DNA of 38,173 bases, from NCBI GenBank assembly GCA_937877085.1, contig CALEEY010000331.1:1-38173 (forward strand), read 5' to 3'. The position numbers and the translations under genes are program-made. The DNA comes from an uncultured Bacteroidota bacterium. Lineage in GTDB: Bacteria > Bacteroidota > Rhodothermia > Rhodothermales > UBA10348. The notes beneath the pieces are model-generated. The model ran no database searches and was not told where the DNA came from. It was given only the letters and a program-made list of their open reading frames with translations. This document shows, piece after piece, positions 8,883-38,173 of this stretch (positions within the stretch are counted from its first letter, which is position 1; each line of letters opens with the position of its first letter).

Positions 8883-9590
8883 CTACACTAGTAAACCGTA
8901 CACCCCTGCGGCAGCCAGTCCACCCAAAATGGGTCCAAGAACGGGTATCCATGCATAGGACCAGTCGCTGTCGCCCTTTCCAGCGATCGGTAACAAAGCG
9001 TGCGCGATTCTGGGTCCTAAGTCTCTGGCTGGATTAATGGCGTACCCCGTAGAACCACCCAGCCCTAAACCTATAACTAAGACCAGGAGTCCAACTGGTA
9101 GGGCATCGAGCGCCCCAAGTCCTACATCTGGCGAAGAGATGTGAAGCACTCCAAAGACCAAGACAAACGTGCCCAGAAATTCCGAAACCAAATTCCACCA
9201 GGAGGTCCGAATAGCGGGGGCGGTGCAGAAAACGGCCAATTTATCCGCTTTGTCTTTCGTGACGGCAAAATGTGGGTAGTAGTGAAGCCAAACCAAAAAG
9301 GCTCCCAGAAAGGCACCAATCATTTGTGCTGCAATGTAACCGGGTACTAAATCCCAAGAAAAGCCGCCTGCCAATGCGAGCCCTAACGTTACGGCAGGAT
9401 TGAGATGGGCTCCGCTTATAGGGCCTACTATAAATACGGCAGCGAAAACCGCCAGACCCCAACCAAAAGTGATCACAATCCATCCACCATCGTTGCCTTT
9501 GGTCTTATTCAACACGACGTTGGCCACAACCCCGTCGCCAAGTAAGACAAGGATGGCTGTGCCAATAATTTCAGCTAAAAACGGTGTCAT
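8883..9590 (-). CDS. glpF: Glycerol uptake facilitator, aquaglyceroporin (MIP family)
   Basis: Inner-membrane channel for facilitated glycerol entry. Length 235, with six hydrophobic helices and two half-helices bearing the NPA boxes: GAHLNPAVTLG (N64-A66) and GYAINPARDLGPRI (N186-A188). The aspartate right after the second box (NPARD, D190) is typical of glycerol-conducting GlpF proteins rather than water-only AqpZ. It lies 28 bp after the phosphodiesterase gene on the same strand and is co-located with glpK and glpD, which supports a role in glycerol catabolism. The start ATG (9590) begins directly at the first helix. Confidence 0.95.
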   Translation of the reverse strand: MTPFLAEIIGTAILVLLGDGVVANVVLNKTKGNDGGWIVITFGWGLAVFAAVFIVGPISGAHLNPAVTLGLALAGGFSWDLVPGYIAAQMIGAFLGAFLVWLHYYPHFAVTKDKADKLAVFCTAPAIRTSWWNLVSEFLGTFVLVFGVLHISSPDVGLGALDALPVGLLVLVIGLGLGGSTGYAINPARDLGPRIAHALLPIAGKGDSDWSYAWIPVLGPILGGLAAAGVYGLLV

Positions 9591-9618
9591 TTGCGTGCTG
9601 TTCGGTCTGGTTAATGCT

Positions 9619-10626
9619 TCACTGGCGGCTATTCAATTCTTCGATAAGAGCTTTCCCACGATCCGGATAATCCGTAATCAATCCATCAATTCCAAGCGCG
9701 ATCAATTCTTTCATTTTTTCGGGCTCATTAACGGTCCAAGGGATAACGGTCACCCCTTTCTGATGGGCATTGGCAACCAGAACAGCATCGACTAATTGAA
9801 CGTTTGGGCTGTAAATGGCGGGAAGAAAGCTCAATTTGGCTAGATTCGCTTCAAATCCCTCGTCGTTTGAGATCAACCAAACCAGATGTACGGATGAATC
9901 TAGGGCGTGCATGGCCTCCAGTGCTCGCGGGTCAAATGACTGGACATCGGCCATCTGTAGGAGCTCTTTTTCGGTCAAAACATCGTAGAGCCGCTGGGCA
10001 AATTCCTCAACGGAGGGATGGAAAAGGGAATCTCCTTCGGGGCTCGACTTAATTTCAATATTATATCGCGGCGGTGTATATCCCATCTGCTCAACGTGGG
10101 CGTTTACAGCATCCACGACGTCTTTGAGCCGAGGCTTGAAAGCAGCCATTGGCTTTTGATCGGGAAATCCGGGGTGCCCACGAAGTCCGCAGTCAAATTG
10201 AGCCACCTCCGCAGCGGTCATTTCATAAATAAGTAATGACTTTTCTTCGTCGAGGGTAACCGGCCGTCCATCGGCATGAGAACATGTCACGGCGGAAAAC
10301 CAGGGCTCGTGCGAAAGGATCACTTCGCCGTCCCGACTAATGGCGGCATCCATTTCTAGCGTGGTCACGCCTATATCCAAAGCCAACAGGAAGGCGGGAA
10401 TGGTGTTTTCGGGAGCCAGTCCTCGCGCACCTCGATGTCCTTGAAGGTCAAAGGGTACTCCGTTTATCGTGTTGTGGCCCATAGTGTTAGAAGAAGGTTG
10501 TGTGCATCCCGATAGCCCATTTGCAAGAATCAATAACCATACTGCCGGCCATGAACCATTGGTGTGTCCGTTATTAAAACGGAAAGTTGAACGGAGAAGG
10601 GAGCGAAAAATGATTGGACCTATCAT
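9619..10626 (-). CDS. Glycerophosphodiester phosphodiesterase lipoprotein
   Basis: Hydrolyses glycerophosphodiesters from phospholipid head groups to glycerol 3-phosphate and an alcohol; probably lipid-anchored in the periplasm or outer membrane. The lipobox LSGC (C41) follows a hydrophobic stretch (WPAVWLLILANG), so the export signal has an unusually long n-region of about 25 residues. The catalytic core is H64-R65 and E74-N75 in GHRGARGLAPENT, E91-x-D93 in LEMDAA and H106 in LSHEP, the standard GDPD set (GlpQ/UgpQ-like). The C-terminal VIPWTVNEPEKMKELIALG and DGLITDYPD close the TIM barrel. Length 335 matches the periplasmic GlpQ type. It starts 14 bp after the glpD stop; its product feeds GlpD, although no glycerol-3-phosphate permease is visible here. 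Confidence 0.93.
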   Translation of the reverse strand: MIGPIIFRSLLRSTFRFNNGHTNGSWPAVWLLILANGLSGCTQPSSNTMGHNTINGVPFDLQGHRGARGLAPENTIPAFLLALDIGVTTLEMDAAISRDGEVILSHEPWFSAVTCSHADGRPVTLDEEKSLLIYEMTAAEVAQFDCGLRGHPGFPDQKPMAAFKPRLKDVVDAVNAHVEQMGYTPPRYNIEIKSSPEGDSLFHPSVEEFAQRLYDVLTEKELLQMADVQSFDPRALEAMHALDSSVHLVWLISNDEGFEANLAKLSFLPAIYSPNVQLVDAVLVANAHQKGVTVIPWTVNEPEKMKELIALGIDGLITDYPDRGKALIEELNSRQ

Positions 10627-10640
10627 AGAAAACGCCCGAT

Positions 10641-12143
10641 TTAATGCTGAACGAGATAGATTTGAGCTACTTTATTGAACGCTTGAACTTCGGTTTTTTG
10701 GCGGGCTTCGTCCCATCCGAGCTCGTGGCCCACGAAGAAGGCGACCTTTGGAGCCGCTTCAATGGCCGCTTTTGCATCTAGAAATAAACACCTCGTCCTG
10801 CGCGATAAAACGTCTTCCACTGACCGTGCCCATTCGGAGGTCACTGCGCGTCGAATATGCTCCTCAAAATAGGGGAGATTGGGATGGATTAAGTTGTTTT
10901 CGGATGAGTCCATATCCTTTTCAGCTTCGGGGTCCATGAGAGGAAGCGTGCGCGTTATACAGGGCCGTTTTAATAGGCCGGCTGTTTTTTCGGCTCTATT
11001 CACCGCGTCCTCAGCCATCTGTCGGTAGGTGGTCCATTTCCCACCGGTAATAGTCACCAAGCCTGACGTCGAAACGACTAACGTGTGATCTCGGGAAATC
11101 GATTTCGTTTCGGCCTTGTTGGCCCGAACAAGCGGCCGCAAACCTGCAAAAACACTTAAAACGTCCTTTCGACCGAGTGGCTTGGACAAATACCGAGCAA
11201 CGTGGGACAGGAGGTAGTCTACCTCTTCATCGAGTGGCACAGGCTCGCGACTGATGTGCTCGCGGGGGGTATCCGTTGTACCGATAATCACTTTACCGTG
11301 CCATGGAACGCCAAAAATGACGCGGCCATCGTCGGTGTCAGGAACCATGATGGCGGTATCAGTAGATAGAAAAGAGGTGTCTACCACAAGATGGATGCCT
11401 TGAGCAGCCTGCATCATCGGAACAGCCTGTGCATTGTCCATGGTGCGGATAAAATCGGTGCCGATTCCGGTGGCATTAATTACGGTTTTCGATTCAAAAG
11501 CGTATTCCAATCCCGATTCCATGTCTTTCGCCCTGACGCCGGTGACGGTACCCTTCTCCTTTATTAGGTCGGCTACTTCTACATAATTGAGGACCACGGC
11601 TCCGTTTTGAACGGCTGTTTGGGCAATACTGATGAGCAAACGGGTATCGTCAAACTGACCGTCCCAATAGGCGACTCCGCCCCTGAGGCCCTCGGAGTTG
11701 ATTCCGGGGAGGTACGCCAAGGTTTCTTCCCGATTCAGGATGTGTGTATGACCAATTCCTAAATGGCGGGCCAATAGGTCATATAGCTTCAGCCCGAGAC
11801 CATACCATGGTTTGTGCCACCATTTGGTACACGGCACCACAAATCGAAGCGGGTGGACGATATGAGGGGCATTTTTGAGCAGGCGACCGCGTTCCCTCAA
11901 CGCCTTCATCACCATTTTGACATTGCCCTGCCGCAGGTAGCGAACACCGCCGTGAATGAGTTTGGTACTTTTACTCGACGTTCCTTTTCCGAAGTCACGG
12001 GCTTCCAAAAGCAGGGTAGTATGCCCCCGGGATGCGGCGTCTAGGGCCGTACCCAGCCCGGTGGCACCCCCGCCTATAATGATAATATCCCAACGCGGCT
12101 TCGAAACCGCCTTTTTGAGCAATTCGTCTCGGCTCGGAATCAT
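10641..12143 (-). CDS. glpD: Aerobic glycerol-3-phosphate dehydrogenase (FAD)
   Basis: Membrane-associated flavoenzyme that oxidises sn-glycerol 3-phosphate to dihydroxyacetone phosphate and passes electrons to quinone. Residues 19-40 form the Rossmann FAD motif [12 protein letters not shown]. They are followed by [29 protein letters not shown], abbreviated here to its hallmark [12 protein letters not shown], which is diagnostic of GlpD. The segment [10 protein letters not shown] and the [16 protein letters not shown] box are also conserved. Length 500 is normal. Its ATG overlaps the glpK stop by 4 nt (ATGA arrangement), so the two are translationally coupled and act consecutively. Confidence 0.96.
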
Positions 12144-13624
12144 TCGGTAATCCAGCCTTTAGTCCGATCCAGAGCCCGCTCCCAATTCCTCATCATTCCC
12201 TTCATTTTATCATCCATTTTGGAAGGGTGGAAAGTTTCGTCGACCTGCCAATAGGCATTTACTTCGTCGGAATCTTTCCAAAAAGAAACAGCTAGACCTG
12301 CCAAAAAAGCGGCCCCAAGCGCGGTTGTTTCAAGGATTTTCGGACGAATGACCGACGTCTGAAGGACGTCCGCTTGAAATTGCATGAGTAAGTCGTTGGC
12401 GGAAGCCCCGCCATCTACTCGGAGCTCAGCCAAGCCAATCCCAGCGTCTTTTTCCATAGCATGAATGACGTCGGACACCTGAAACGCGATGCTTTCGAGG
12501 GCCGCCCGCGCAATATGTGCTTTTGTTGAGCCTCTGGTCAGACCGAAAATCGTTCCCCGAGCGTAGGCGTCCCAATGCGGAGCCCCCAAACCGGTGAAAG
12601 CAGGAACCATAACTACGCCATCGGAGGACTCGACTTCCATGGCTAGGGCTTCAATTTCAGACGAAGCCCCTACAAACTCCAGACCGTCTCTGAGCCACTG
12701 CACGACGGCACCACCAATAAAAACGCTGCCCTCCAGGGCATATTCGGTCTTTCCATCGATCTGCCAGGCGATGGTTGTGAGCAAATTATTGGTTGATGGA
12801 ACGGGCTTGGTGCCCGTGTTCATCAGCATAAAACAACCCGTACCGTAGGTGTTCTTAACCATGCCGGCTTCCAGACAGCCTTGGCCAAACAGCGCTGCCT
12901 GCTGATCTCCAGCAATACCGGCAATGGGAATTGCAGCTCCTAACAGGTCGGAATCGGTGTGTGCAACTACCGCACTGGAAGAAACAATTTCAGGGAGTAA
13001 ACTAGTCGGGACATCCAAAATCTGGCAGAGTTCGGTGTCCCAAGCCACTGAATGAATGTTACACAACAGCGTCCGCGAGGCATTACTCGCGTCGGTGACA
13101 TGCGTTTTTCCGCCAGTCAGGTTCCAAATAAGCCAAGAATCGATGGTTCCAAAGGCCAAATGGCCTTGATCGGCCAATGCTCGTGCCCCTGAAACGTTAT
13201 CTAAGATCCACTGAACCTTGGTGCCCGAAAAATAGGCGTCTAACACCAGCCCAGTTTTTTCCTGAAACAGCTTCGTTTTTCCGGAGGCTCTGAGTGCATC
13301 ACACGCACCAGCGGTGCGCCGATCCTGCCAAACAATGGCATTATAGACTGGTTCGCCGGTACGACGGTCCCAAACAACGGTTGTTTCTCGTTGATTGGTG
13401 ATTCCGATGGCCTTGACGTCCGAGGCCTTTACACCGGAATCCTTGAGGACTTTTCTGGCGGTCGCAAGTTGCGAGGCCCAGATGTCCTTCGGATCGTGTT
13501 CCACCCAGCCAGGTTTAGGAAATAGTTGCTCAAACTCTTCTTGAGCCACACCAACAATAGAGCCCGCATGATTGAACAAAATGGCTCTAGAGCTTGTCGT
13601 TCCCTGGTCGAGTGCGAGAATCAT
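12140..13624 (-). CDS. glpK: Glycerol kinase
   Basis: Phosphorylates glycerol to glycerol 3-phosphate with ATP, trapping what GlpF admits. FGGY-family landmarks: N-terminal [48 protein letters not shown], the nucleotide-binding [14 protein letters not shown], and the signature [19 protein letters not shown] set the start at the ATG at 13624: it begins exactly at the conserved [12 protein letters not shown] and gives 494 residues, the usual size. A longer frame reaching 13696 would only overlap the peptidase gene. The upstream M19 stop ends 4 nt before this ATG, and the 3' end overlaps glpD, so it is inside an operon. Confidence 0.97.
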
Positions 13625-13628
13625 AGGA

Positions 13629-14933
13629 TTAACCTGGACCTTGGATTTCTCTTGCGATGCGCTGTACTTCATCCAAAACGCGTAGCAGGTTTCCACTCCA
13701 CATTTTTTCGATCTGCTCTTCGGTATACCCGCGGCGAACCAATTCCAACGTCACATTAAACGTTTCTGCCGCATTGTTCCAACCGTCAATTCCGCCGCCG
13801 CCATCAAAGTCAGAGCTGATTCCGACGTGATCGACACCAATCAGATTGACTAAGTAGTCGATGTGGTCGACAAAATCGGAGACGTTAACAGGCTCAGCAG
13901 TTACCTCGCCTTTTCGAGCCTCGAATGCTTCATCGACCGGGGCAACGGAAGCTTGGTAGGCCTCACGTTGCTCGGCAGGCATCTGGAATAGATCGCGACG
14001 ATTAGCAATCAGGGTGACGCCCATTTCTGCTGCAATCGCATTGCGCAGAGAGTCAGAAGCTGCTTGGTAGGCGTCATTTTTGGCAGAGTTTACATAGCCA
14101 CGGAACGCTACCGTTTGGATCACACCGCCATTGGCTTTGAGCGCTAAAAGCTGCTCATCGTCCATATTGCGACTAACGTCGTTCATGGTCCGAGCGGCTG
14201 AATGGGAGGCAATAACAGGTGCTTTAGACAACGCCATAGCTTGCATGTTTGAAAGCTTTGAAGGGTGGGAGAGGTCAATCATGATCCCCCATTTGTTCAT
14301 TTCAGCGATGGCTTCTTTACCCATCTCGCTTAAACCATTGTACAGCCAGGTGCTGTCTCTTTCTCCTGTATTGGAGTCTGAAAACTGGCTGTGTCCGTTG
14401 TGCGACAACGACATATAGCGGCCGCCAAGTTCTTGGAATTTCTTGATATTGCCAAGATCCATGCCAACCTGATACGCATTTTCAATGGCGATCATGGCGA
14501 CTTTTTTCCCCGAAGCAGAGATGCGGCGAACATCGTCCGAAGTCAAAGCCAACTCAATCTGATCGGGAGCTTTTTCCTCCGTTAGCCAGTGAATGGCTTC
14601 AAATTTGGCAAGGGCGTCGGCGTTAGCCTCTGCGAAGCCTTCATCCGTTAAAGGACCTTGTCCTACGTAGACAACCATCCAGCTTACATCGAGGCCGCCT
14701 GCGACCATTTTCGGGATGTTAACTTGATTGTCTAGGTCCATCGTGTAATTGCTTTCTTCGGTGAAGTTGGCCACGCTGATGTCGTTGTGGGTGTCGAGCG
14801 TAATGACGCGTTCGTGAATGCCGCGTGCGCGCGCAACCAGCTCTTCCTCAGTTTCAGCGGCTTCAGTACAGGCGCCCAGGAGGAAAATGGCTAGAAGCAA
14901 GGTTAGCTTTGTGGCCGAATGTAGAAATTTCAT
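13629..14933 (-). CDS. M19 family membrane dipeptidase lipoprotein
   Basis: Zinc dipeptidase of the renal-dipeptidase family, cleaving dipeptides (possibly including D-residues) at the cell envelope. A lipoprotein signal ends at the lipobox LLGAC (C22). The binuclear zinc ligands are H49 and D51 (LDTHND), bridging E151 (IAIENAYQ), H223 (IDLSHPS) and H244 ([12 protein letters not shown]). A conserved [12 protein letters not shown] precedes the C-terminus. Length 434 is normal. It is the first gene of the minus-strand run and lies 4 nt from glpK; a peptidase leading a glycerol operon is unusual. An inverted repeat, CCCGTAAAACGGG, lies 47 bp upstream (14980-14992). Confidence 0.93.
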
Positions 14934-19434: not shown

Positions 19435-20310
19435 CTACGGTAAACTGTTTAGGTAGGCCCAAATGGAGGATAGTTGGGTATCCGTTAGCCGCGTAAAACC
19501 GGGCCAAGGCATGAGATTGGGGTCCAGGATGGTTCCATCAGGCCTAGCGCCCGATCGAACGGCATGTAAAAACTCTGCTTCGGACCAGGTGGCCAACGCG
19601 CCCGTCCTTGTCAGGTCTGGTCCGGGAGGAGGGCCTTCAAACGCTGGCCCCTTCAAGGCTACGCCATGACATTCGCCACATGCCGCTAAATTCGTAAGGT
19701 ATTTTCCGTACTCGATAGTCGATCCGGTGGGCGGGCTGGTCGCGTGTACCATTTCCGGATCCACCACCAAGGATGGTGGGGAATAAATGCCCGCTCCGAT
19801 CAATAATTTGGCAAGAAGTGCAGGCTTGGTCTTCGGCAGTTCGTTGTCTATAGGCGGCAACTGTTTGAGATAGGATAAGAGGGCCGAAAAATCTTCGTCA
19901 CTGTAGGCGCTGAAAAATTCGGCCGGCATGCCAACCAGCACGCGTCCATCGCCCCCAATACCATGTCTAACGGCTTTTTCCCAATCTCCATCGGTAAATG
20001 AGCCTCCGACGCCTCCTTTACCCGAGGTCAGATTGGATGCTACAAAAAGGCCAAATGCGTCTTCTTCTCCCAACGCAGCCCCTTGTAGGCCCACCCCGTG
20101 GCACCCAATACATCGGCTGACGACCGTTGCGAGTTGCTCGCCGTGAGCCAGCATGCTCGAGTCTGGCGCTTGGGAAGTAAAATCGTGCGCTACTGAAGGC
20201 GAAGCCGCGATCTTTTTTGATCCCAAAAAGGAAATAATACCTACGGCTAAAAGGAGAACTCCCACGATGCTCGCTAACCCGATTCCAACGATTCGAAACA
20301 GCTTTTTCAT
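19435..20310 (-). CDS. Membrane-anchored diheme cytochrome c
   Basis: Periplasmic electron carrier held by an uncleaved N-terminal helix (FRIVGIGLASIVGVLLLAVGIISFL). Two class-I-like cytochrome domains carry heme motifs C67-I-G-C70-H71 and C211-G-E-C214-H215, with candidate distal ligands M128 (LVGMPAEFF) and M267 (DPNLMPWPGF). The layout resembles the small subunit of alcohol/aldehyde dehydrogenases or a free diheme cytochrome; no dehydrogenase subunit lies nearby, so the partner is unknown. The start overlaps the DUF2164 stop by 4 nt (ATGA), indicating coupling. Confidence 0.92.
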   Translation of the reverse strand: MKKLFRIVGIGLASIVGVLLLAVGIISFLGSKKIAASPSVAHDFTSQAPDSSMLAHGEQLATVVSRCIGCHGVGLQGAALGEEDAFGLFVASNLTSGKGGVGGSFTDGDWEKAVRHGIGGDGRVLVGMPAEFFSAYSDEDFSALLSYLKQLPPIDNELPKTKPALLAKLLIGAGIYSPPSLVVDPEMVHATSPPTGSTIEYGKYLTNLAACGECHGVALKGPAFEGPPPGPDLTRTGALATWSEAEFLHAVRSGARPDGTILDPNLMPWPGFTRLTDTQLSSIWAYLNSLP

Positions 20311-30270: not shown

Positions 30271-33156
30271 TTACTCCCGAGCCAGCACCGTCATTTTGCC
30301 GTTCATAGTAGCGCGATGGCCAGGGAAGGAACAGATAATATCGTATACCCCGGGCTCCGAAGGAGCCGTAAATTCGATCATCTGTTCGGCGTCGTGACTC
30401 AACAGGTCGGTGGCTACGATAATGATGGCATTTTCGGGAATGAATCCCTTGGCAAACCCATCGCCTCCCATGGCGTCCGCGAGGGCGCCCACCGATTCTC
30501 CCTGTCCCGGAGGCACGATAATCAGGTTATGCGGGATGAAATCATGGTTTTCAAAGCGAATTTTGACTGTTTCGCCGGCAGTGACCGCAAAATTGGGCCG
30601 GTTGAATCGCATCTGTTCCATTACGGTCCCCACGACGATCAGCCCATCTTCCGATTTTCCTTCGAACTGCGCCGCGAGCTGTTCCGGAGTCATATCAAAT
30701 GGCGATCGATCGAGAGCTGGCACGAGGGCCGAAGAGTCGTGATCCCACAATATTTCGACGCGCTGGGCGGCCAGTCGGGCATGAGCCACCGGCGAGGCCA
30801 GTACCTGAGCAAGTAGTTCGCGGTCTTTGACGTTATGTTGTTGATGCAGCCACAATCCTTCCAGCACGTGATGAGCATCCTTGGCTGAGGATGGGTCAAA
30901 CCCAGCCAGCCATTTGTCGGCAGCCGCTATCACTTCGTCCGTGTTGCGCTCGGAGAGTTCGATTCGTGCGCGGTATCTGACTCCGTTTACTGGGTTTTTC
31001 AGATGCTCGAGGAGGGCTTCGATGGGTGCGCCATCGATTACAGCATGCTCCGAAAGAGGTCTTCCAGGCGCTGTGATGCGGTAAATGCGGCCGTGCTCAT
31101 GATCCCGGTTGGGGTCGCGCACGTTGTGCTGCATGTGTCCAATGATGGCGTTTGCCCAATCGGCCACGTACAGCGCGCCATCGTCACCTATTTCAAAGTC
31201 GGAAGGCCTGAAATTGAGGTCTGCAGAGTCTAAAAGGTCAGCGGTCTCCTTCCCGGTCACAAATCCGGTTTTGGTATCAAAGGTCAAATCGTATTCCTTA
31301 ATCCCGAGGAATGCGATGACGTTTAGTAGAATGAAATCCCCTTCCATCGATGGGGGTAGATGCGAGCTGGAAATAATGCCGCTAGCAGTAACCGGTCGGA
31401 CGGTGTTTTCGAGCAGCTTTCGCATGCTAAACGTGCCAGATCCGTCGTCGCTGGGCACAACCTGGTAGGCGCGTCCTCCGGTAGCATCTGTGGCGTAGTG
31501 GTAGCCCCAGTAGTCGAACGAAGTGCCGTGTGCGTTCGGCGAATTGTCTGCGTGGAAGCTGAATTCATGGGTTCTGGGATTGAATCGATACATGCCCGAT
31601 ACATCCGACTCCTGGTTGTTGGTCCAGGGCGTTTCCACGTTCGAGACGTTGAAAACACCTCGCTGATAGTAGATAAATCCGTCAGGGCCGTACACAAATC
31701 CATTGGCCGAGTGATGCGTGTCTGCCGAGCCCAAGCCTCCCATCAATTCGATGCGCACATCGGCGACGTCATCGCCATCGGTGTCTTTGAGGAATAGGAG
31801 ATTGGGGACCGAAGCCACAATGACGCCGCCATTCCAGAATTCGAACCCTGTAGGATTGTGCACTTTGGCAAATGTTATGACCGTGTCGGCTACGCCATCG
31901 CGGTTTTCATCCGGAAGAATCAAGATGCGGTCGTCCATTTGCTTGAGGGGTTCCCATTTGGGATACGTAGCCCACGATGCCACCCAGAGTCGTCCTTTCG
32001 TATCGACACTCATTTGAACGGGGTTGACGAGTTCGGGAAACATCTCTTCCGAAGCAAATAAGTTGACAGCTAGGTCAGGTGGCAACTTCATGGCGGCCAT
32101 GGATTGTGCGGAGGTGGCGTATTGGACCGTTCCCGTTTTGCTTTCGCCGTCTTGAATCTGCTCTTCGCCGAGATTGGTCTCCACCTCTACGGGAGGAGGG
32201 ACATTTGAATCGTCGGGAGCTACGACGCGGCCTTTAGCGGCTGCCCACACGACTGTATCCCGGTTGGCGGTCATATAGTCTAGCTGAATCAGTTCGTGGT
32301 TCAGCACATCGTAATTGGTCTGTCCGTTCGTGAAGGAGAGCAGCGAGCGGCCACCCCACACATCGTTCCCATCGGTCGCGCGATACCGGTTGAACCAGTG
32401 CCAGTTTTTATCTAAAACCGCTTGGCGAATAGTTTCTAGTTTGTCTTCGTTTTCTTCAGGAGTCCAGCCTAGGATGGCTTCGGCAGCGATTTTAGCGACT
32501 ACGCGATTTCCCTCGCTATTGAGATGCACCCCGTTGATGGTAAGCGCTTCATTGGAACTCTCAAAAGCGGCGAGGGAGGGGTGAAAAAGGTCAACAAAGT
32601 CGACTCCCTTTGCCGCAGCGACCGTTTTTGTGACCTCGGTGTACGCTTCCAGGCGCCTGTTGTGCGCAGCCCCATCGGGGAAATTGGGATCGTTTAGGTT
32701 CTCGAAGGCGATAGGAGAAAACAGGACGATACGCGGCGGACCTTCTCCGTTGTACGTTTTGGTCTGCGTACTATCAATCCACACGGTTAGCGCCTGGCCA
32801 TATCCTTCGGCATCGTCGAAAAAGGACTCGTTGTAGCCAAACATCACAAACAAGACATCTGCGCCTGAGAGCTCCAAGTACGCGTCTTCGGTAGGGAATC
32901 CGACGCTTCGAGGACGCCGATCGATCCGGTCCCCTGAGAAACCTTGATTGCGAATCACCAGATCAGATCCCGACAATTCATTTTGAAGGTACGTCTCGAA
33001 CCAGCCGTCGTGCTGCATACGATCCGCTAACCCGTTGCCTATCAACACAATGTGGTCTCCCTTTTTCAGCTCGATGGCGCTGTCGGGGGTACAACCAACA
33101 ACGGTGATAAGCAGAAAGGCGAAAAAGCCGAGGCGGGCACGGGTTGCGAATTTCAT
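30271..33156 (-). CDS. Lipoprotein: SGNH-like domain, dehydrogenase-type beta-propeller, type-1 copper domain
   Basis: A 961-residue multidomain envelope lipoprotein (VVGC, C22). Residues 33-230 resemble an SGNH hydrolase, but the expected GDS nucleophile box reads GNGLAD (IVLIGNGLADRM), while the block-V His is kept (NGVHLNSEGN, H211). Residues 350-700 match the soluble-dehydrogenase-like beta-propeller of PVC-type membrane-bound dehydrogenases (KLPPDLAVNLFASEEMFPE, VASWATYPKWEPL, SSHLPPSMEGDFIL, ALYVADWANAIIGHMQH). Residues 705-810 look like HEAT-type helices. Residues 845-960 form an azurin-like cupredoxin with H876, C942, H947 and M951; C-x4-H-x3-M is exactly the azurin spacing. No CxxCH heme motif is present, so copper may replace the usual cytochrome. 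It is last in a unit with the ThuA and TonB genes. Confidence 0.9.
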   Translation of the reverse strand: MKFATRARLGFFAFLLITVVGCTPDSAIELKKGDHIVLIGNGLADRMQHDGWFETYLQNELSGSDLVIRNQGFSGDRIDRRPRSVGFPTEDAYLELSGADVLFVMFGYNESFFDDAEGYGQALTVWIDSTQTKTYNGEGPPRIVLFSPIAFENLNDPNFPDGAAHNRRLEAYTEVTKTVAAAKGVDFVDLFHPSLAAFESSNEALTINGVHLNSEGNRVVAKIAAEAILGWTPEENEDKLETIRQAVLDKNWHWFNRYRATDGNDVWGGRSLLSFTNGQTNYDVLNHELIQLDYMTANRDTVVWAAAKGRVVAPDDSNVPPPVEVETNLGEEQIQDGESKTGTVQYATSAQSMAAMKLPPDLAVNLFASEEMFPELVNPVQMSVDTKGRLWVASWATYPKWEPLKQMDDRILILPDENRDGVADTVITFAKVHNPTGFEFWNGGVIVASVPNLLFLKDTDGDDVADVRIELMGGLGSADTHHSANGFVYGPDGFIYYQRGVFNVSNVETPWTNNQESDVSGMYRFNPRTHEFSFHADNSPNAHGTSFDYWGYHYATDATGGRAYQVVPSDDGSGTFSMRKLLENTVRPVTASGIISSSHLPPSMEGDFILLNVIAFLGIKEYDLTFDTKTGFVTGKETADLLDSADLNFRPSDFEIGDDGALYVADWANAIIGHMQHNVRDPNRDHEHGRIYRITAPGRPLSEHAVIDGAPIEALLEHLKNPVNGVRYRARIELSERNTDEVIAAADKWLAGFDPSSAKDAHHVLEGLWLHQQHNVKDRELLAQVLASPVAHARLAAQRVEILWDHDSSALVPALDRSPFDMTPEQLAAQFEGKSEDGLIVVGTVMEQMRFNRPNFAVTAGETVKIRFENHDFIPHNLIIVPPGQGESVGALADAMGGDGFAKGFIPENAIIIVATDLLSHDAEQMIEFTAPSEPGVYDIICSFPGHRATMNGKMTVLARE

Positions 33157-33182
33157 GGTAGGGTGGTGTTTGGGGTGAGATC

Positions 33183-33263
33183 AGTTTTCTGGCGTGACGG
33201 GCTGGGTCGTGGGTTAAGTTTGCCGGGTTTAGTTTTCCGGCGTGCCGGGCTGGGTCGTGGGTT
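33183..33263. repeat. 48-nt period direct repeat at the ThuA gene end
   Basis: A 33-nt block (33183-33215) recurs 48 nt later (33231-33263) with 31 of 33 bases equal. In the ThuA frame both copies read PTTQP-x-TPEN followed by a stop, so the last ten codons and the stop codon are duplicated, with the outer copy untranslated. Confidence 0.85.
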
Positions 33264-34335
33264 TAGATGCGTCCATGATGGGCGAATCCCATCCCGCCAT
33301 ATCTGCGGGGCGAACTCCCAGGCGATATCCGTCGAAGGCAAACGGTGCTGGATTGTACGGGCCGACCAAGTCAACACTCATGTCGCTCGTTATGGAATCT
33401 TCCATTCCGGCTGCCCAGAACGCAGCGTTGATCATCAAACGCCTGAATCCGTCATTCAAAAAGTCTTCCGAAGCGCCGTGGGTGGTGGTGAAAACACGGC
33501 CTTCTGGCACATTTGCACCGGAGTAGCTGCGCGTCCAAACCACGGGGACTTGTTCTTTCTCGGGATCGGGCTGGGCGTCGGCTTCCATTCCATTGAGCAC
33601 CACGCCAACCGCGAGAGGACGGAAGTCAGGCATTGGATTGGCGAAATAGCCCCCCGATTGGACATGCACGTCGTGAACGCCCCGCAGAATGGGGTGATCG
33701 GCCTCGGTTTCGAGGGGCATGACAAGCGAACTCTGTTCGTGATTGGTTCCATAATGTCCCGCCCACGTTTCGCCCAGAACCTGCCGACCAAACCCTTTGA
33801 GGTACTCTTCGCCGTCATAATTCCAATTGTACATGGCGAATTTCCCTTCGATACCCGCGAAAGCATGCGTCGATGTACGAATACCGATGATGGGCCCAGC
33901 CCGGTTTACATAATCGACAATGTGCTGCATTTCCTCCTCAGGAAAGTTCTGAAAACGAAGCCCCATCACTAGAAGATCGGCCGTTTCCAGCGCCTCAAGC
34001 CCCTTTATGTCGGAGCTGCCTGGTTGGATGAACCCTTCGTCGTCAAGGGTAAAGAAGACGCTTGTTTTAAAACCATAGCGTTTCGAAAGAATCCGGGCCA
34101 TGGCTGGCAGAATTTCCTCGGATCGGTATTCGTGATCTCCGGCTAGAAATACGATGTGTTTGCCGACTCCTGGGCCCTCGGTTCCTTCATACGAAACCAT
34201 ATAAGGGTTTGGGTCGCTTTCGGGTACCGGCACGGCAGCGTCCTGACAGCTTACGAGGAGGGGCGAAATAAAGAGGAGAGCAGCGAGCGATATTCCGGCC
34301 ATGGAATGAGGTGTTCTGCGGGCGAAGTCCTTCAT
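33229..34335 (-). CDS. ThuA-domain lipoprotein
   Basis: ThuA-like (class I glutamine amidotransferase-like fold) protein; ThuA members act in trehalose or other sugar utilisation, but no general enzyme activity is firmly known. From ATG 34335 the product has 368 residues with lipobox LLVSC (C30). The longer frame from 34428 is rejected because it runs through a tandem repeat before the signal peptide. Fold landmarks: HIVFLAGDHEYRSEEILP, LLVMGLRFQNFPEEEMQHI, IIGIRTSTHAFAG, ETWAGHYGTNHE, VVWTRSYSGANVPEGRVFTT and GASEDFLNDGFRRL, all usual for ThuA. The gene is 96 bp after the TonB receptor and 72 bp before the propeller lipoprotein; ThuA and such propellers often occur together in PVC bacteria (from memory). 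Confidence 0.9.
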   Translation of the reverse strand: MKDFARRTPHSMAGISLAALLFISPLLVSCQDAAVPVPESDPNPYMVSYEGTEGPGVGKHIVFLAGDHEYRSEEILPAMARILSKRYGFKTSVFFTLDDEGFIQPGSSDIKGLEALETADLLVMGLRFQNFPEEEMQHIVDYVNRAGPIIGIRTSTHAFAGIEGKFAMYNWNYDGEEYLKGFGRQVLGETWAGHYGTNHEQSSLVMPLETEADHPILRGVHDVHVQSGGYFANPMPDFRPLAVGVVLNGMEADAQPDPEKEQVPVVWTRSYSGANVPEGRVFTTTHGASEDFLNDGFRRLMINAAFWAAGMEDSITSDMSVDLVGPYNPAPFAFDGYRLGVRPADMAGWDSPIMDASKPTTQPGTPEN

Positions 34336-34364
34336 AGCGGTACGTAAGAAATGGGTGAATTGGC

Positions 34365-34421
34365 TTGCATTAAAATGGGCGCCTTGCATTAAAACGGGTG
34401 CCTTGTAGTAAAACGGGTGAA
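34365..34421. repeat. 19-nt tandem repeat between TonB receptor and ThuA genes
   Basis: Three 19-nt units TTGCATTAAAATGGGCGCC (34365-34383), TTGCATTAAAACGGGTGCC (34384-34402) and TTGTAGTAAAACGGGTGAA (34403-34421). The flanks also match each other: GGGTGAATTGGC occurs at 34353-34364 and 34415-34426. The zone lies in the 96-bp gap between the two genes and would change the spacing of their translation signals. Confidence 0.88.
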
Positions 34422-34431
34422 TTGGCATCCA

Positions 34432-36528
34432 CTAAAGGGCAACCTCGATTCCAATAGAAACGGTGCGTAGGGCAGCCGGGAAGATGAATATCGATTCCGA
34501 TCCTCCCGGATCTGGATAGGCCGTGCTGTTAAACTTTTTGTCGAGCGCATTGAAGACACTGAGCGAAAGCGTGTAGGCGTTACGCGTGTAGGCGTTACGC
34601 GTGTAGGCAACGCGTGCGTCCACCGTCGCATAGTCGGGTAGAGATTGCGAATTGGCGTCGTCAAGGTACATTTTTCGCAGTCCTTTAAGAACAACACTGG
34701 CCGATACGGGACCATGTTCAGCGACGATTCCACCACTAAACGAGTGTCTGGGGATGGCTTTAACGGCATTTCCTTTGTTTTCACCCTTTTCCAAGGTCAC
34801 ATCCTGTAGGGTGTAGTTCAAAAATGCGGAGCCAAGAACTTCTTTCGCTAGCTTGATGCCCGTTTCTATGCCTTTATGACGGCTCTTACCAATATTGATG
34901 TTCGAAAAGGTCTCGAAGGAAAAATCAATCTCATTGGTCATGTCAATGGAATAGGCAGACGTGCTCACCAATGCCGACCATCCATCGGGAGTCGCTATAC
35001 GGTGATAGAATCCGACTTCGTAGCTGGTCCCTTCTTGAGGGGTAAGGGCCGCATTGGCAATTCGGATGGAATAGGGCGGGAAGGGCACGGGGAAAGCGCG
35101 CAGGTCGTACAATTGATCGAGGGTGGGTGCTTTGAAGGAACGGCTCACATTCGCGTACACATTGCCCACGTGTTGACTGCTCGATGCGTACCGATAGTTT
35201 ACACCCGCTTTTGGACTAAATGCCGTGTGGGAGGCGCTTGGAACGGCTTCGGACAGCCCCACACCTTCGTCAAACGCGTCTTCGAGCCAATCGGCCCGCG
35301 CACCAAGTGACAGGTTCAGCCGCGGCGTGGGGTTGAGTTCTAACTGAGCATAGCCGGCGAAGCCGGCTCTAGAGGCGGTCCCATCCGACGAAATATCCCC
35401 AGGAGTGCCAGAAGCGTTCAAATAAGCATCGTCCAGACCTCCGGTTGCAATAGGTGCGTAGCGGGTGTCCAAAGATCCGTAAAAAGCATCCACGCCAATG
35501 GTGAGATGGTGCTCGATTGGAAAGGGGAGAACGATTTCTGCGAGTTGGATACCCGCTTTTAGCCCTTGGGCGTCCACCTTCCGTTGTTGGGTGTCAGCGA
35601 AATCGGCGCTCAAGGGCAACGTCCTGACAAGGTCTTGATTGCGAAGATGTCCAGATAGCGACGTGGTCAGTTGGCCTAGGTCCAGTGCCCAGCTTCCGTC
35701 GAGTGCTGCTCGGTACGTTTGCTCGCTTACCCCGTCAAATTGAAAGAATGCGAGGCTTTCTGCGCCATCCTTCGTGGCATCAGTCGATCGTAGGGGGCCT
35801 GGTGTGTCAAATTCCCGGAGGTTTGCAGAGCCGCTCACGTCGAGCGATCGATTGATCTCTTGAACGAGTCGATACGATCCCTGAATCGTGCCGGACCTTC
35901 GGTTACTGTGGTCTCGGAAACCTTCGTTTTCATTATAATCACCCAAAATTGAATATCGCTCGCTCATCATGGACGCTTGAACGGCCCGAGCGCCATAGGA
36001 GCCCGTACTGGCCTTGAACCGCTTCGTGGTTTCGAGGGGCGCCTGAGTGCGCACGTTGATAACCGCTCCGATCGCGGCATCACCATAGAGAGAAGACGAG
36101 CCGCCACGAAGTACTTCGATGGTAGTTGTCGGCGATTGGGTGATGGCCTCCCAGTTCACGAGCCCGTTTTCCATGTTATTGATGGGCTTCCCGTTGAGCA
36201 TCACAATAACATATTCAGCTTCGCCGCCACCGTAAAAGCCACGCGTAACTGATTGTGGCGCATAGCCTAAGCCATCAAAATCGAGAAAGGTTATTCCCGG
36301 CAAAAAGCTTAGCAAGCTGGCCGCATTTCTATTTGGGAGGGCGCCGAGCTCGCGAGGCGCCAGAACGGATACGCCAGCCGTTGAAGAGGAAAGGGTAGAA
36401 GCCGTACGCTCAGCCGTGACTACAATCGGATCTAGCGCACGGGTGGCGAGGGTGTCGGCTACTTGGGCATGCGCCTGTGAAACGAACAGGGTCATGAAAA
36501 GAGCAAAAGACGATAGGCTGAATTTCAT
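34432..36528 (-). CDS. TonB-dependent outer-membrane receptor
   Basis: Ligand-gated outer-membrane channel powered by TonB/ExbBD. From the ATG at 36528 it has about 698 residues; a TTG at 36537 would add three. A signal peptide (FALFMTLFVSQAHA) is followed by a TonB-box-like DPIVVTAER (residues about 34-42). The plug (about 45-155) shows ASLLSFLPGITFLDFDG and VIVMLNGKPINN, then IEVLRGGSSSLYGDAAIGAV, all conserved. A 22-strand-type barrel ends with RTVSIGIEVAL, lacking the usual final aromatic. The barrel contains a 15-nt tandem repeat encoding repeated TRNAY. Its gene starts the minus-strand unit with ThuA and the propeller lipoprotein. No SusD homologue is nearby, so it is not a typical Sus pair; the substrate is unknown. 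Confidence 0.95.
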   Translation of the reverse strand: MKFSLSSFALFMTLFVSQAHAQVADTLATRALDPIVVTAERTASTLSSSTAGVSVLAPRELGALPNRNAASLLSFLPGITFLDFDGLGYAPQSVTRGFYGGGEAEYVIVMLNGKPINNMENGLVNWEAITQSPTTTIEVLRGGSSSLYGDAAIGAVINVRTQAPLETTKRFKASTGSYGARAVQASMMSERYSILGDYNENEGFRDHSNRRSGTIQGSYRLVQEINRSLDVSGSANLREFDTPGPLRSTDATKDGAESLAFFQFDGVSEQTYRAALDGSWALDLGQLTTSLSGHLRNQDLVRTLPLSADFADTQQRKVDAQGLKAGIQLAEIVLPFPIEHHLTIGVDAFYGSLDTRYAPIATGGLDDAYLNASGTPGDISSDGTASRAGFAGYAQLELNPTPRLNLSLGARADWLEDAFDEGVGLSEAVPSASHTAFSPKAGVNYRYASSSQHVGNVYANVSRSFKAPTLDQLYDLRAFPVPFPPYSIRIANAALTPQEGTSYEVGFYHRIATPDGWSALVSTSAYSIDMTNEIDFSFETFSNINIGKSRHKGIETGIKLAKEVLGSAFLNYTLQDVTLEKGENKGNAVKAIPRHSFSGGIVAEHGPVSASVVLKGLRKMYLDDANSQSLPDYATVDARVAYTRNAYTRNAYTLSLSVFNALDKKFNSTAYPDPGGSESIFIFPAALRTVSIGIEVAL
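34569..34611. repeat. 15-nt coding tandem repeat in the TonB receptor
   Basis: Two exact units GCGTGTAGGCGTTAC (34569-34583, 34584-34598) and a diverged third (34599-34611). On the coding strand they give repeated TRNAY in the penultimate barrel region (ARVAYTRNAYTRNAYTLS). Being multiples of three, copy changes keep the frame and lengthen or shorten a strand or loop. Confidence 0.88.
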
Positions 36529-36678
36529 TGAGGACAAGGCAAGTTTGTGGTCGTTCGAAAATCTACCCTAGAATATAGGACAGAGAATGAAGGGATATCT
36601 TTCCCATGAATGCAACATGCGTGTTGAAGTGCTATTTTGTCCACGCGTCTGCCTCTCACTCAGCAATATCAAAAGCCC

Positions 36679-37539
36679 GTGATCACTAAACGAATATCGA
36701 CCGCTCACATTCTGGCCAATCTGCAAGCAAAAGTAGATAAGCGCATCCCGATTATGATATCGTCGGCGGGGAGTGGCCTAGTGGCCAAGCTGCTTGAAAG
36801 ATGCGGCACCGATTGCGTGAATACGTTCTCTGGCGCGCGACTGCGCGCCAATGGAATGGGAACGATGGCCATGATGTGGCCCATTCTCGATTCGAACCGC
36901 CAAACGCTCGACTACACCCGCGAGGATATTATGCCGGCCATGGAAGGGAAGGCCTTTGTGTGCGCCTGCCTCAACGCGAACGACCCGCTCAAAGACATGC
37001 GGATGGTGCTACAAGAATGCAAGGATATGGGGGTTAATTCGGTGTCGAACATCGGCCCATCCATTTCTTATGTCGATCACGACTCAGAGATTTACAAAGT
37101 GCTCAATTCTGCCGGCATCACCCTGCAAAATGAGATCGATATGCTCAAATTGGCCCGAGAAGAGATGGATATGGTGACCATCGGGCTCGGTTTCACATTG
37201 GAAGACTCGATAGCTGTTTGCGCCGGCGCGCGGCCGCATATTTTTTGTTACCACGCAGGGACCACCAAAGGGGGGCTCAAGGGGTATGATAGCGGCTTAA
37301 CCATCGAGCAGACCGCCGAGCAAACAGAAGAAGCCTATCAGAAATGTAGAGCCGTTCACCCGGATGTGATTTTAATTGCCCACGGCGCCGCCATGGAGAA
37401 TCCGGAAGATGCACAGTATATGCTCGACCATACGTCGGGTCATGGATTTTGGACCGGATCATCGACCGAGCGCCTGCCCATCGAACGCGCCGTGACGGCG
37501 GCGGCGTCTGAGTTCGCCAGTCTCCGCTTTTCTAAATAA
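36679..37539 (+). CDS. PEP-hydrolase-family TIM barrel protein (C-terminal Tm-1 half)
   Basis: Member of the PF09370-type family, the TIM-barrel half of the plant Tm-1 resistance protein; its bacterial reaction is not established. Landmarks: ISTAHILANLQAKVDKRIPI, SSAGSGLVAKLLERCGTDC, VSNIGPSISYVDHD, EEMDMVTIGLGFTLEDS, CYHAGTTKGGLKGYDSG and LIAHGAAMENPEDAQYML. I start it at GTG 36679, where family similarity begins; the frame extends to a TTG at 36637, which would add 14 residues. No ATG fits. The downstream UPF0261 gene starts 65 bp later on the same strand, as expected for a two-gene Tm-1 unit. Divergent from the TonB receptor, with 150 bp between the start codons. Confidence 0.88.
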   Translation: MITKRISTAHILANLQAKVDKRIPIMISSAGSGLVAKLLERCGTDCVNTFSGARLRANGMGTMAMMWPILDSNRQTLDYTREDIMPAMEGKAFVCACLNANDPLKDMRMVLQECKDMGVNSVSNIGPSISYVDHDSEIYKVLNSAGITLQNEIDMLKLAREEMDMVTIGLGFTLEDSIAVCAGARPHIFCYHAGTTKGGLKGYDSGLTIEQTAEQTEEAYQKCRAVHPDVILIAHGAAMENPEDAQYMLDHTSGHGFWTGSSTERLPIERAVTAAASEFASLRFSK

Positions 37540-37604
37540 GCCCCCGGCACCCTGCCCATCTCTGTCCACCTCCGCTCTCCTCGACTTTCTCAACCACGAT
37601 TCTC

Positions 37605-38173
37605 ATGAAAACCATCGCCATCCTCGCGACTCTGGACACCAAAGCGGCCGAAGCCGACTTCATGCGGCAACAGATTGAGCTTCTCGGAGGGAAGGCGTTT
37701 CTCATTAACATCGGCGTGCTTGGTGCTTCATCCGTACAGGCGGATGTGACCAAGGAGGAGATTATTGAGGCCGGCGGAGGGTCATTGGCCGAACTGATGA
37801 AGGCCCCCACCCGCGAAAAAGCGAATCCATTTGTGGTTGCGGGCGCTACCAAAAAGATGTTGGAGCTGCAGCAATCGGGCGCCATCCACGGCGTGGTTGC
37901 GCTTGGCGGAACGCAAGGAACGTCCACGTGTGCTCCGGTGCTCCAGGCGCTGCCCTATGGCTTTCCCAAGGTCATACTTTCGACGGCTGCTTCCGGGGAC
38001 ACGTCCCCGTTTGTGGGGATTAAGGATATCACGATGATGTTCGCGGTCAGTGATATTCTGGGGCTTAACGTGTTCTCTCGTAGGATATTAGCGAATGCAG
38101 CCGCGTGCGCGTGGGGCATGGCCCAGGTAGAGATGAGTATCACCAAATCGACGGCCAAGGGTGTGATTGGGAT
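37605..38173 (+). CDS. UPF0261 / Tm-1-like ATP-binding protein (3' end outside window)
   Basis: N-terminal half of Tm-1 as a separate gene: PF06792-type protein with an ATP-binding-like fold. The 189 visible codons of about 400 start at ATG 37605: MKTIAILATLDTKAAEADFM, then LINIGVLGASSVQADVTKEE, then GVVALGGTQGTSTCAPVLQ, LPYGFPKVILSTAASGDTSP, FVGIKDITMMFAVSDILGLN. LDTK..E, GG..GT and STAASGD..P are family hallmarks. It has 65 bp of leader with no visible terminator after the preceding gene, so the two probably share a transcript. The function in bacteria is unknown. Confidence 0.92.
   Translation, partial: MKTIAILATLDTKAAEADFMRQQIELLGGKAFLINIGVLGASSVQADVTKEEIIEAGGGSLAELMKAPTREKANPFVVAGATKKMLELQQSGAIHGVVALGGTQGTSTCAPVLQALPYGFPKVILSTAASGDTSPFVGIKDITMMFAVSDILGLNVFSRRILANAAACAWGMAQVEMSITKSTAKGVIG

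Follow-up and report, generated by a model that had tools for sequence, protein, structure and literature searches.

Tm-1, which confers virus resistance on tomato, encodes two domains of uncharacterised original function that are found widely among bacteria, archaea and fungi (PMC5028733); in plants, it works via the binding of a viral protein (PMC12432084). The bacterial counterparts of these domains, a UPF0261 protein and a TIM-barrel protein (PF09370), are typically encoded by an adjacent pair of genes that is reported to co-evolve (PMC5028733). Such a pair lies at one end of contig CALEEY010000331.1 (C331 in this analysis), whose 38,173 bases constitute the window analysed here and which is part of the 2.9-Mb, 332-contig assembly GCA_937877085.1 of an uncultured marine bacterium from the Rhodothermales, an order now placed in Rhodothermota. 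Both Tm-1 families are found there as the adjacent gene pair that is typical of bacteria, back to back with a unit of three envelope genes encoding a TonB-dependent receptor, a ThuA lipoprotein and a propeller lipoprotein with a copper domain. The pair differs from plant Tm-1 by its organization as two genes instead of a fusion, by its catabolic neighbours and by the lack of any tie to viral resistance. As other phyla carry the same set of genes again, in some cases fused or within one operon, the locus is probably one carbohydrate-catabolism module, of which one half would oxidise a compound in the periplasm and the other would cleave it in the cytosol (probability of about 0.55).

Several described systems share components with this locus. 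The PVC-type heme-binding CxxCH proteins (TIGR02604/DUF7133) have the same propeller and domain order as the propeller lipoprotein, which displays 33–36% identity with ThuA-SGNH-propeller-cytochrome c fusions from Verrucomicrobia; however, an azurin-type copper domain replaces the cytochrome c here, ThuA is encoded by a separate gene and a TonB receptor is added. The thuA and thuB genes of Sinorhizobium are involved in trehalose utilisation and encode a cytosolic pair with a Gfo/Idh/MocA oxidoreductase. They share with the locus the ThuA family name and the sugar context, whereas the ThuA studied here is a lipoprotein with a propeller partner. Mll9387 from Mesorhizobium loti (PDB 2p10), a putative phosphonopyruvate hydrolase, belongs to the same PF09370 family and has the same fold as the TIM protein (29% identity), but the clade of the window is separate and very conserved, and the activity of 2p10 is itself putative. 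Finally, relatives of the pair are found beside an LsrF-family aldolase, an RPE-like epimerase, a short-chain dehydrogenase/reductase (SDR) or an aldolase-SDR, an FGGY kinase and an AraC regulator, as in the lsr operon of autoinducer-2 (AI-2) or in class II aldolase-SDR sugar operons. Nevertheless, the LsrF/LsrG/LsrK set was not found: LsrF-family proteins are encoded only in Verrucomicrobial relatives and by none of the window genes scanned, no LsrG was noted, and neither TIM-UPF0261 nor ThuA-propeller is a part of lsr. No pathway with this exact set was found in the literature searched, as the original prediction had supposed, and no functional paper was found there on the UPF0261-TIM pair, on ThuA with PVC-type proteins or on LsrF in Verrucomicrobia.

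Linkage of the envelope unit with the Tm-1 pair

Twenty-seven genomes of the same family were compared, 18 of which carry PF09370; some "neighbour" genes resulting from simple open reading frame calling were antisense artefacts (for example, c13 over UPF0261 in L055) and were discarded. In 14 of these 18 genomes (G000–G004, G010, G013, G018, G020, G021 and G023–G026), TIM-UPF0261 has a gene of the receptor/ThuA/propeller unit as its direct neighbour, the apparent gaps in G003, G010, G020 and G023 being contig breaks inside the envelope unit. The outer flanks vary between genera, and G018 has the same cluster in a rearranged order. Both the orthologous propeller gene and the TIM gene are found in 16 of the 27 genomes, only TIM in two, only the propeller in two and neither in seven (Fisher p ~0.001, uncorrected for ancestry). 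UPF0261 is present in 26 out of 27 genomes harbouring PF09370 versus none of 33 genomes devoid of it, in agreement with published data on bacteria in general (PMC5028733). The arrangement exceeds what chance would give: although PF09370 is rare in the phylum (above the cut-off in just 18 of the 296 genomes sampled), most same-family carriers have retained the arrangement, and it reappears in other phyla. In nearly all same-family relatives, UPF0261 is followed by a class II aldolase-type gene (~205–270 codons), mostly convergent (13 loci), and all 13 adjacent aldolases have an intact set of catalytic residues (Glu, the two His of HxH and a third His). The window ends before the expected position of this gene, which was not found in this assembly.

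Recurrence outside the family was analysed in 80 named TIM loci, within the stretch available around each TIM gene. Cultured bacteria with TIM-UPF0261 include Roseibacillus ishigakijimensis, Ahrensia kielensis and Pacificibacter marinus. An operon from Akkermansiaceae encodes an AraC regulator, TIM, UPF0261, an LsrF-family aldolase (428 bits for a cut-off of 297), an RPE-like epimerase and an SDR; the label of class II aldolase-SDR considered for the Verrucomicrobial "k2" gene was rejected, as this gene encodes an SDR alone. The operon is extended by a gene encoding a ~1,380-residue ThuA-SGNH-propeller-HEAT-cytochrome c fusion in L104–L106 and L132 (Akkermansiaceae/Verrucomicrobiales). A minimal operon is found in two loci from Opitutaceae (L154 and L155), with the order AraC, TIM, UPF0261 and fusion, the latter starting 8 bases after UPF0261. 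According to genome searches, the full fusion is single-copy in each genome, and the operon copy is that one; it is split over contigs in G332 and located elsewhere in Roseibacillus persicicus (G338). A further arrangement is found in L170, from a planctomycete-like branch of the TIM tree, where ThuA, TIM and UPF0261 genes follow each other, divergently from an SGNH-propeller-cupredoxin gene. Mapping the ThuA/PVC label on the TIM tree needs nine changes, at least four of which are forced by well-supported branches. In a more distant TIM clade, two other families of Rhodothermales carry TIM-UPF0261-cupin-DUF7133 or TIM-cupin-DUF7133 arrangements.

Most neighbour contexts are indicative of sugar catabolism. 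In marine Alphaproteobacteria, the order is AraC, alpha/beta hydrolase, TIM, UPF0261 and an aldolase-SDR fusion, after which come either genes for an FGGY kinase, a HAD phosphatase and a class II aldolase or those for a sugar ABC transporter; the UPF0261-TIM pair of rhizobia and Qingshengfaniella has sugar ABC transporter, Gfo/Idh/MocA and cupin genes as neighbours. Non-sugar contexts also exist, such as the plasmid copies from Halalkalicoccus and Xenorhabdus that have mixed neighbours. Naming the substrate from such neighbours (trehalose, fucose, AI-2 or apiose) was rejected as unsupported. The earlier suggestion of a lactone finds thin support: a PcaD-like hydrolase gene lies near TIM in 36 of the 80 loci but not in the family of the window.

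A separate clade of window-type TIM proteins from Akkermansiaceae (L108, L112, L113, L116, L118, L121, L122, L124–L126, L129–L131, L133 and L150) is mostly found beside sulfatase and/or alpha/beta hydrolase genes, with no adjacent UPF0261. The UPF0261-LsrF-RPE genes of L114 and L123 are located 5–6 kb from TIM. L158, labelled as Dehalococcoidia UBA7891 (Chloroflexi) by a binning that may be wrong, has genes for a TonB receptor and for a protein that contains ThuA, together with TIM-UPF0261-aldolase/SDR.

The putative oxidising and cleaving halves

The 961-residue lipoprotein carries a VVGC lipobox and a TIGR02604 propeller (198 bits for a curated cut-off of 122.2), but no CxxCH heme motif anywhere in its sequence. 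Its C-terminal domain is closest to auracyanin A (1.7e-14), with the His, Cys, His and Met ligands of type-1 copper all in place. The copper-propeller lipoprotein of the original prediction was thus recovered, whereas an SGNH-like domain had been missed. The nucleophile site of SGNH block I (GNGLADRM) is occupied by G, A or S among close homologues; because the serine is not conserved, SGNH esterase activity was rejected as the main function. The best Foldseek matches of the protein model (predicted local distance difference test score, pLDDT, of 70) are the pyrroloquinoline quinone (PQQ) sugar dehydrogenases 2ism, 3a9g and 6jt5; further domain-by-domain matches are SGNH esterases and auracyanin A, and the propeller-plus-cupredoxin plan resembles that of nitrous oxide reductase. 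A profile search of PDB sequences with the propeller and ThuA proteins was uninformative. The cupredoxin stands where the otherwise collinear Verrucomicrobial fusions have their cytochrome c domain. Such a swap between copper and heme carriers at the same C-terminal place suggests that electrons leave through this domain, which would make the propeller a redox enzyme; three heme-copper oxidases encoded by the genome are possible electron acceptors. The lipoprotein is therefore proposed to be a periplasmic sugar oxidoreductase with a built-in copper electron carrier, although both the oxidation and the cofactor are putative.

At 19435–20310 on the minus strand, the window encodes a protein that gives two matches of the cytochrome c type and whose gene neighbours that of a beta-lactamase-fold/DUF3471 protein; it is a possible electron-transfer partner that is not linked to the locus. 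In G021, a second, diverged DUF7133-cupredoxin protein of 866 residues (L044:4344-6944) adjoins the class II aldolase, and nearby genes encode a VCPO-like protein and a member of the fatty-acid hydroxylase family.

The TonB receptor, which carries a TonB-box-like DPIVVTA sequence, is nearer to BtuB/CirA types than to SusC according to its NCBIfam and PDB relatives. Glycan uptake of SusC/SusD type was rejected, given this type of receptor, the absence of SusD nearby and the ThuA and propeller genes as neighbours. The receptor is the loosest member of the envelope unit, being absent beside ThuA in G004, G006, G009 and G017; by contrast, the ThuA and propeller genes stay together even where they are separated from TIM. 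It is proposed that the receptor imports a substrate or a cofactor. In genus g9, a small methyltransferase-like gene lies between the ThuA and propeller genes (L039:5495-6046, L046:2860-3426 and L047:9422-9973).

The TIM proteins share about 71–95% identity across phyla, and the named relatives at 84–95% identity mostly come from metagenome-assembled genomes of Bacteroidetes and Rhodothermales, which points to a Rhodothermales-like host. The protein matches PDB 2p10 (8.7e-36) and shares its fold with the isocitrate lyase/phosphoenolpyruvate (PEP) mutase superfamily. The next-best Foldseek matches beyond its own family are 2-methylisocitrate lyase, carboxyphosphonoenolpyruvate (CPEP) phosphonomutase and Pdx1, i.e., lyases and synthases, which is consistent with C-C bond chemistry. 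Among the residues invariant in both TIM clades are D59, R68, R70, N87, D116, E166, H206, H249, E278 and R279. The TIM barrel is thus proposed to be a C-C lyase-type enzyme working with UPF0261, its reaction being suggested by fold and conservation. The PEP_hydrolase label of PF09370 is a name only, for which no biochemistry was found in the literature searched. UPF0261, named "Tm-1-like ATP-binding" by NCBI, probably binds a nucleotide or a substrate. Tentatively, the two proteins could form a two-component, nucleotide-dependent, C-C-cleaving enzyme of an undescribed pathway, which would take the product of the copper- or heme-wired periplasmic ThuA/propeller oxidase; in this still speculative scheme, plant Tm-1 would descend from an enzyme of that reaction and might still perform it.

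The uptake, oxidation and further conversion of one compound would fit the locus, and the whole process can be envisaged as follows. The TonB receptor would admit a small sugar-like compound (or the cofactor of the oxidase), which ThuA and the propeller lipoprotein would bind and oxidise on the periplasmic face. Electrons would leave through the fused copper domain (the fused cytochrome c in Verrucomicrobia) towards the respiratory chain, and the oxidised product would enter the cytosol through a putative inner-membrane transport step. There, UPF0261 and the TIM barrel would act jointly, the latter performing metal-dependent C-C chemistry of the isocitrate lyase/PEP mutase type. Lastly, a class II aldolase in Rhodothermales, or an LsrF-type aldolase, an epimerase and an SDR in Verrucomicrobia, would complete the breakdown to central metabolites. 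The two divergent units are presumed to be co-regulated.

The value of the locus lies in the testable context shared by the Tm-1 family and the DUF7133 oxidase-like proteins. Because the linkage recurs, and goes as far as a single operon that includes the fused ThuA-propeller-cytochrome protein, the Tm-1 pair can be placed in a defined metabolic context, with partners that lend themselves to testing (oxidase, aldolase, LsrF-type aldolase, epimerase, SDR and AraC regulator). The linkage also provides a candidate role for DUF7133/PVC-type proteins, a large uncharacterised group in marine bacteria, and reveals that copper has naturally taken the place of heme as electron outlet. The minimal operon from Opitutaceae is small enough to be expressed as a whole.

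One system or two

The original prediction had joined the five genes into one candidate system. Adjacency in 14 of 18 carriers and independent recurrences in other phyla argue for this proposal, but a minority of close relatives depart from it in the way that the prediction itself had named as refuting, and the claim is therefore only partly supported. G006, G009 and G017 carry ThuA-propeller apart from TIM-UPF0261 (on separate contigs or in separate regions), G016 (74% complete) has the Tm-1 pair without the envelope unit, and G014 (98% complete) has the receptor, ThuA and propeller genes without TIM or UPF0261. Other data also weigh against a single module. Most of the 80 TIM loci lack a ThuA or PVC gene within the stretch covered (18 with ThuA, 13 with PVC); DUF7133 paralogues are abundant in the family genomes, so that single DUF7133 adjacencies mean little; and no inner-membrane transporter belongs to the envelope unit. 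The propeller model is of moderate confidence (pLDDT 70), and the PQQ-dependent sugar dehydrogenases, its best fold matches, share only ~12% identity with it. As PqqE, a PQQ synthesis protein, is above the cut-off in none of the 27 family genomes, PQQ would need to be imported. The separated units and the TIM loci devoid of ThuA/PVC genes would be expected if two independent systems were often adjacent, one being a stand-alone periplasmic ThuA/propeller oxidase together with the receptor and the other a cytosolic Tm-1/aldolase sugar pathway unrelated to it, their linkage within the family mostly reflecting ancestry and that in other phyla coincidence among many PVC-type genes (up to ~26 paralogues, mostly partial, in Verrucomicrobia). 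Such independence is rather unlikely, as the full-length fusion is single-copy and located in the TIM-UPF0261 operon in six genomes, and as the operons that associate AraC, TIM, UPF0261 and the fusion, or ThuA, TIM and UPF0261, are difficult to account for by common descent with Rhodothermales. The one-system interpretation thus largely survives, with better support than could be known from the window alone and with the caveat that its halves part in a minority of close relatives.

Within a single module, the roles of two components can be read differently. The TIM/UPF0261 proteins might serve in sensing or regulation, by detecting a sugar intermediate, instead of acting as pathway enzymes: a sigma-54 activator with a fused PF09370 domain is encoded next to a free UPF0261-TIM pair in Azospirillum and Qingshengfaniella (L191:9267-11015 and L192:4859-6640), and plant Tm-1 acts through binding to a viral protein (PMC12432084). 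In these fusions, the TIM domain is likely a sensor of the pathway's own ligand. For the free proteins, such a role appears improbable, since their conservation across phyla and their invariant polar residues are as expected of an active site, their fold neighbours are lyases and synthases, and TIM comes early in catabolic operons already equipped with AraC or GntR regulators. The TonB receptor, for its part, could import a cofactor of the propeller oxidase (PQQ, a corrinoid or a copper chelate) and not the catabolic substrate, as its BtuB/CirA-like character, the lack of a PQQ synthesis gene above the cut-off in the family and a weak similarity (56.8 bits, far under the cut-off of 1200) to PqqU, a receptor for PQQ, would suggest. 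However, generic similarity between TonB receptors spans many ligands, the low identity among relatives (~47–64% outside close ones) is not what would be expected if the receptor were dedicated to a single invariant cofactor, the receptor is missing beside ThuA in several relatives, and the use of PQQ by the propeller is only putative; exclusive cofactor import is therefore quite unlikely.

Layout of the locus

The five genes are real and lie where they had been placed, the minus-strand envelope trio being back to back with the plus-strand TIM and UPF0261 genes (Table 1). The true start of ThuA is probably near 34338, according to the starts of homologues in the alignment, and the TIM gene very likely begins at the GTG codon where its homologues begin. 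TIM and UPF0261 are two genes separated by 65 bp, i.e., not a fusion of the plant Tm-1 type. UPF0261 is cut by the contig end after codon 189, and its missing C-terminal half was found on no other contig of the assembly; the same-genus homologue in L034 is complete (405 residues, PF06792 and PF23189) and 90% identical over the part present in the window.

Table 1. Features of the locus at the end of the window.
Feature	Position	Strand	Evidence
961-residue lipoprotein (SGNH-like, DUF7133/TIGR02604 propeller, HEAT-like and azurin-type cupredoxin domains)	30271..33156	-	Pfam PF23500 4.7e-65, PF13472 4.5e-14, PF00127 1.5e-8
SGNH/GDSL-like domain without conserved serine nucleophile	32467..33054	-	GNGLADRM
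DUF7133 beta-propeller	31057..32109	-	conserved DTHH and RDHxHGRIYR motifs
HEAT-like helical repeats	30742..31023	-	model helices; PF13646 in fused Verrucomicrobial homologues
Type-1 copper cupredoxin	30283..30645	-	H876, C942, H947, M951
ThuA lipoprotein	33229..34428	-	PF06283 5.8e-12, 46.7 bits (gathering 33.4); lipobox LLVSC
TonB-dependent receptor (Plug and beta-barrel), BtuB/CirA-like	34432..36537	-	PF00593 3.9e-46, PF07715 1.7e-14
Spacer between the divergent TonB receptor and TIM genes	36538..36678	.	
PF09370 TIM-barrel protein, GTG start 36679 (longest open reading frame from 36637)	36679..37539	+	PF09370 2.2e-55, 188 bits (33.8)
UPF0261 (Tm-1 N-terminal type), first 189 codons	37605..38171	+	PF06792 9.2e-53, 179 bits (27)

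No known RNA element, including the cobalamin riboswitch, was found in the window at gathering thresholds. In relatives, a TATTTTG/TATATT -7-like element lies upstream of TIM in the divergent spacer and is weak evidence for a promoter. Elsewhere in the window, a glycerol block at 8883–13696 on the minus strand encodes a GlpF-type aquaporin, a glycerophosphodiester phosphodiesterase, an FAD glycerol-3-phosphate dehydrogenase and an FGGY (glycerol) kinase, and adjoins an M19 dipeptidase gene.

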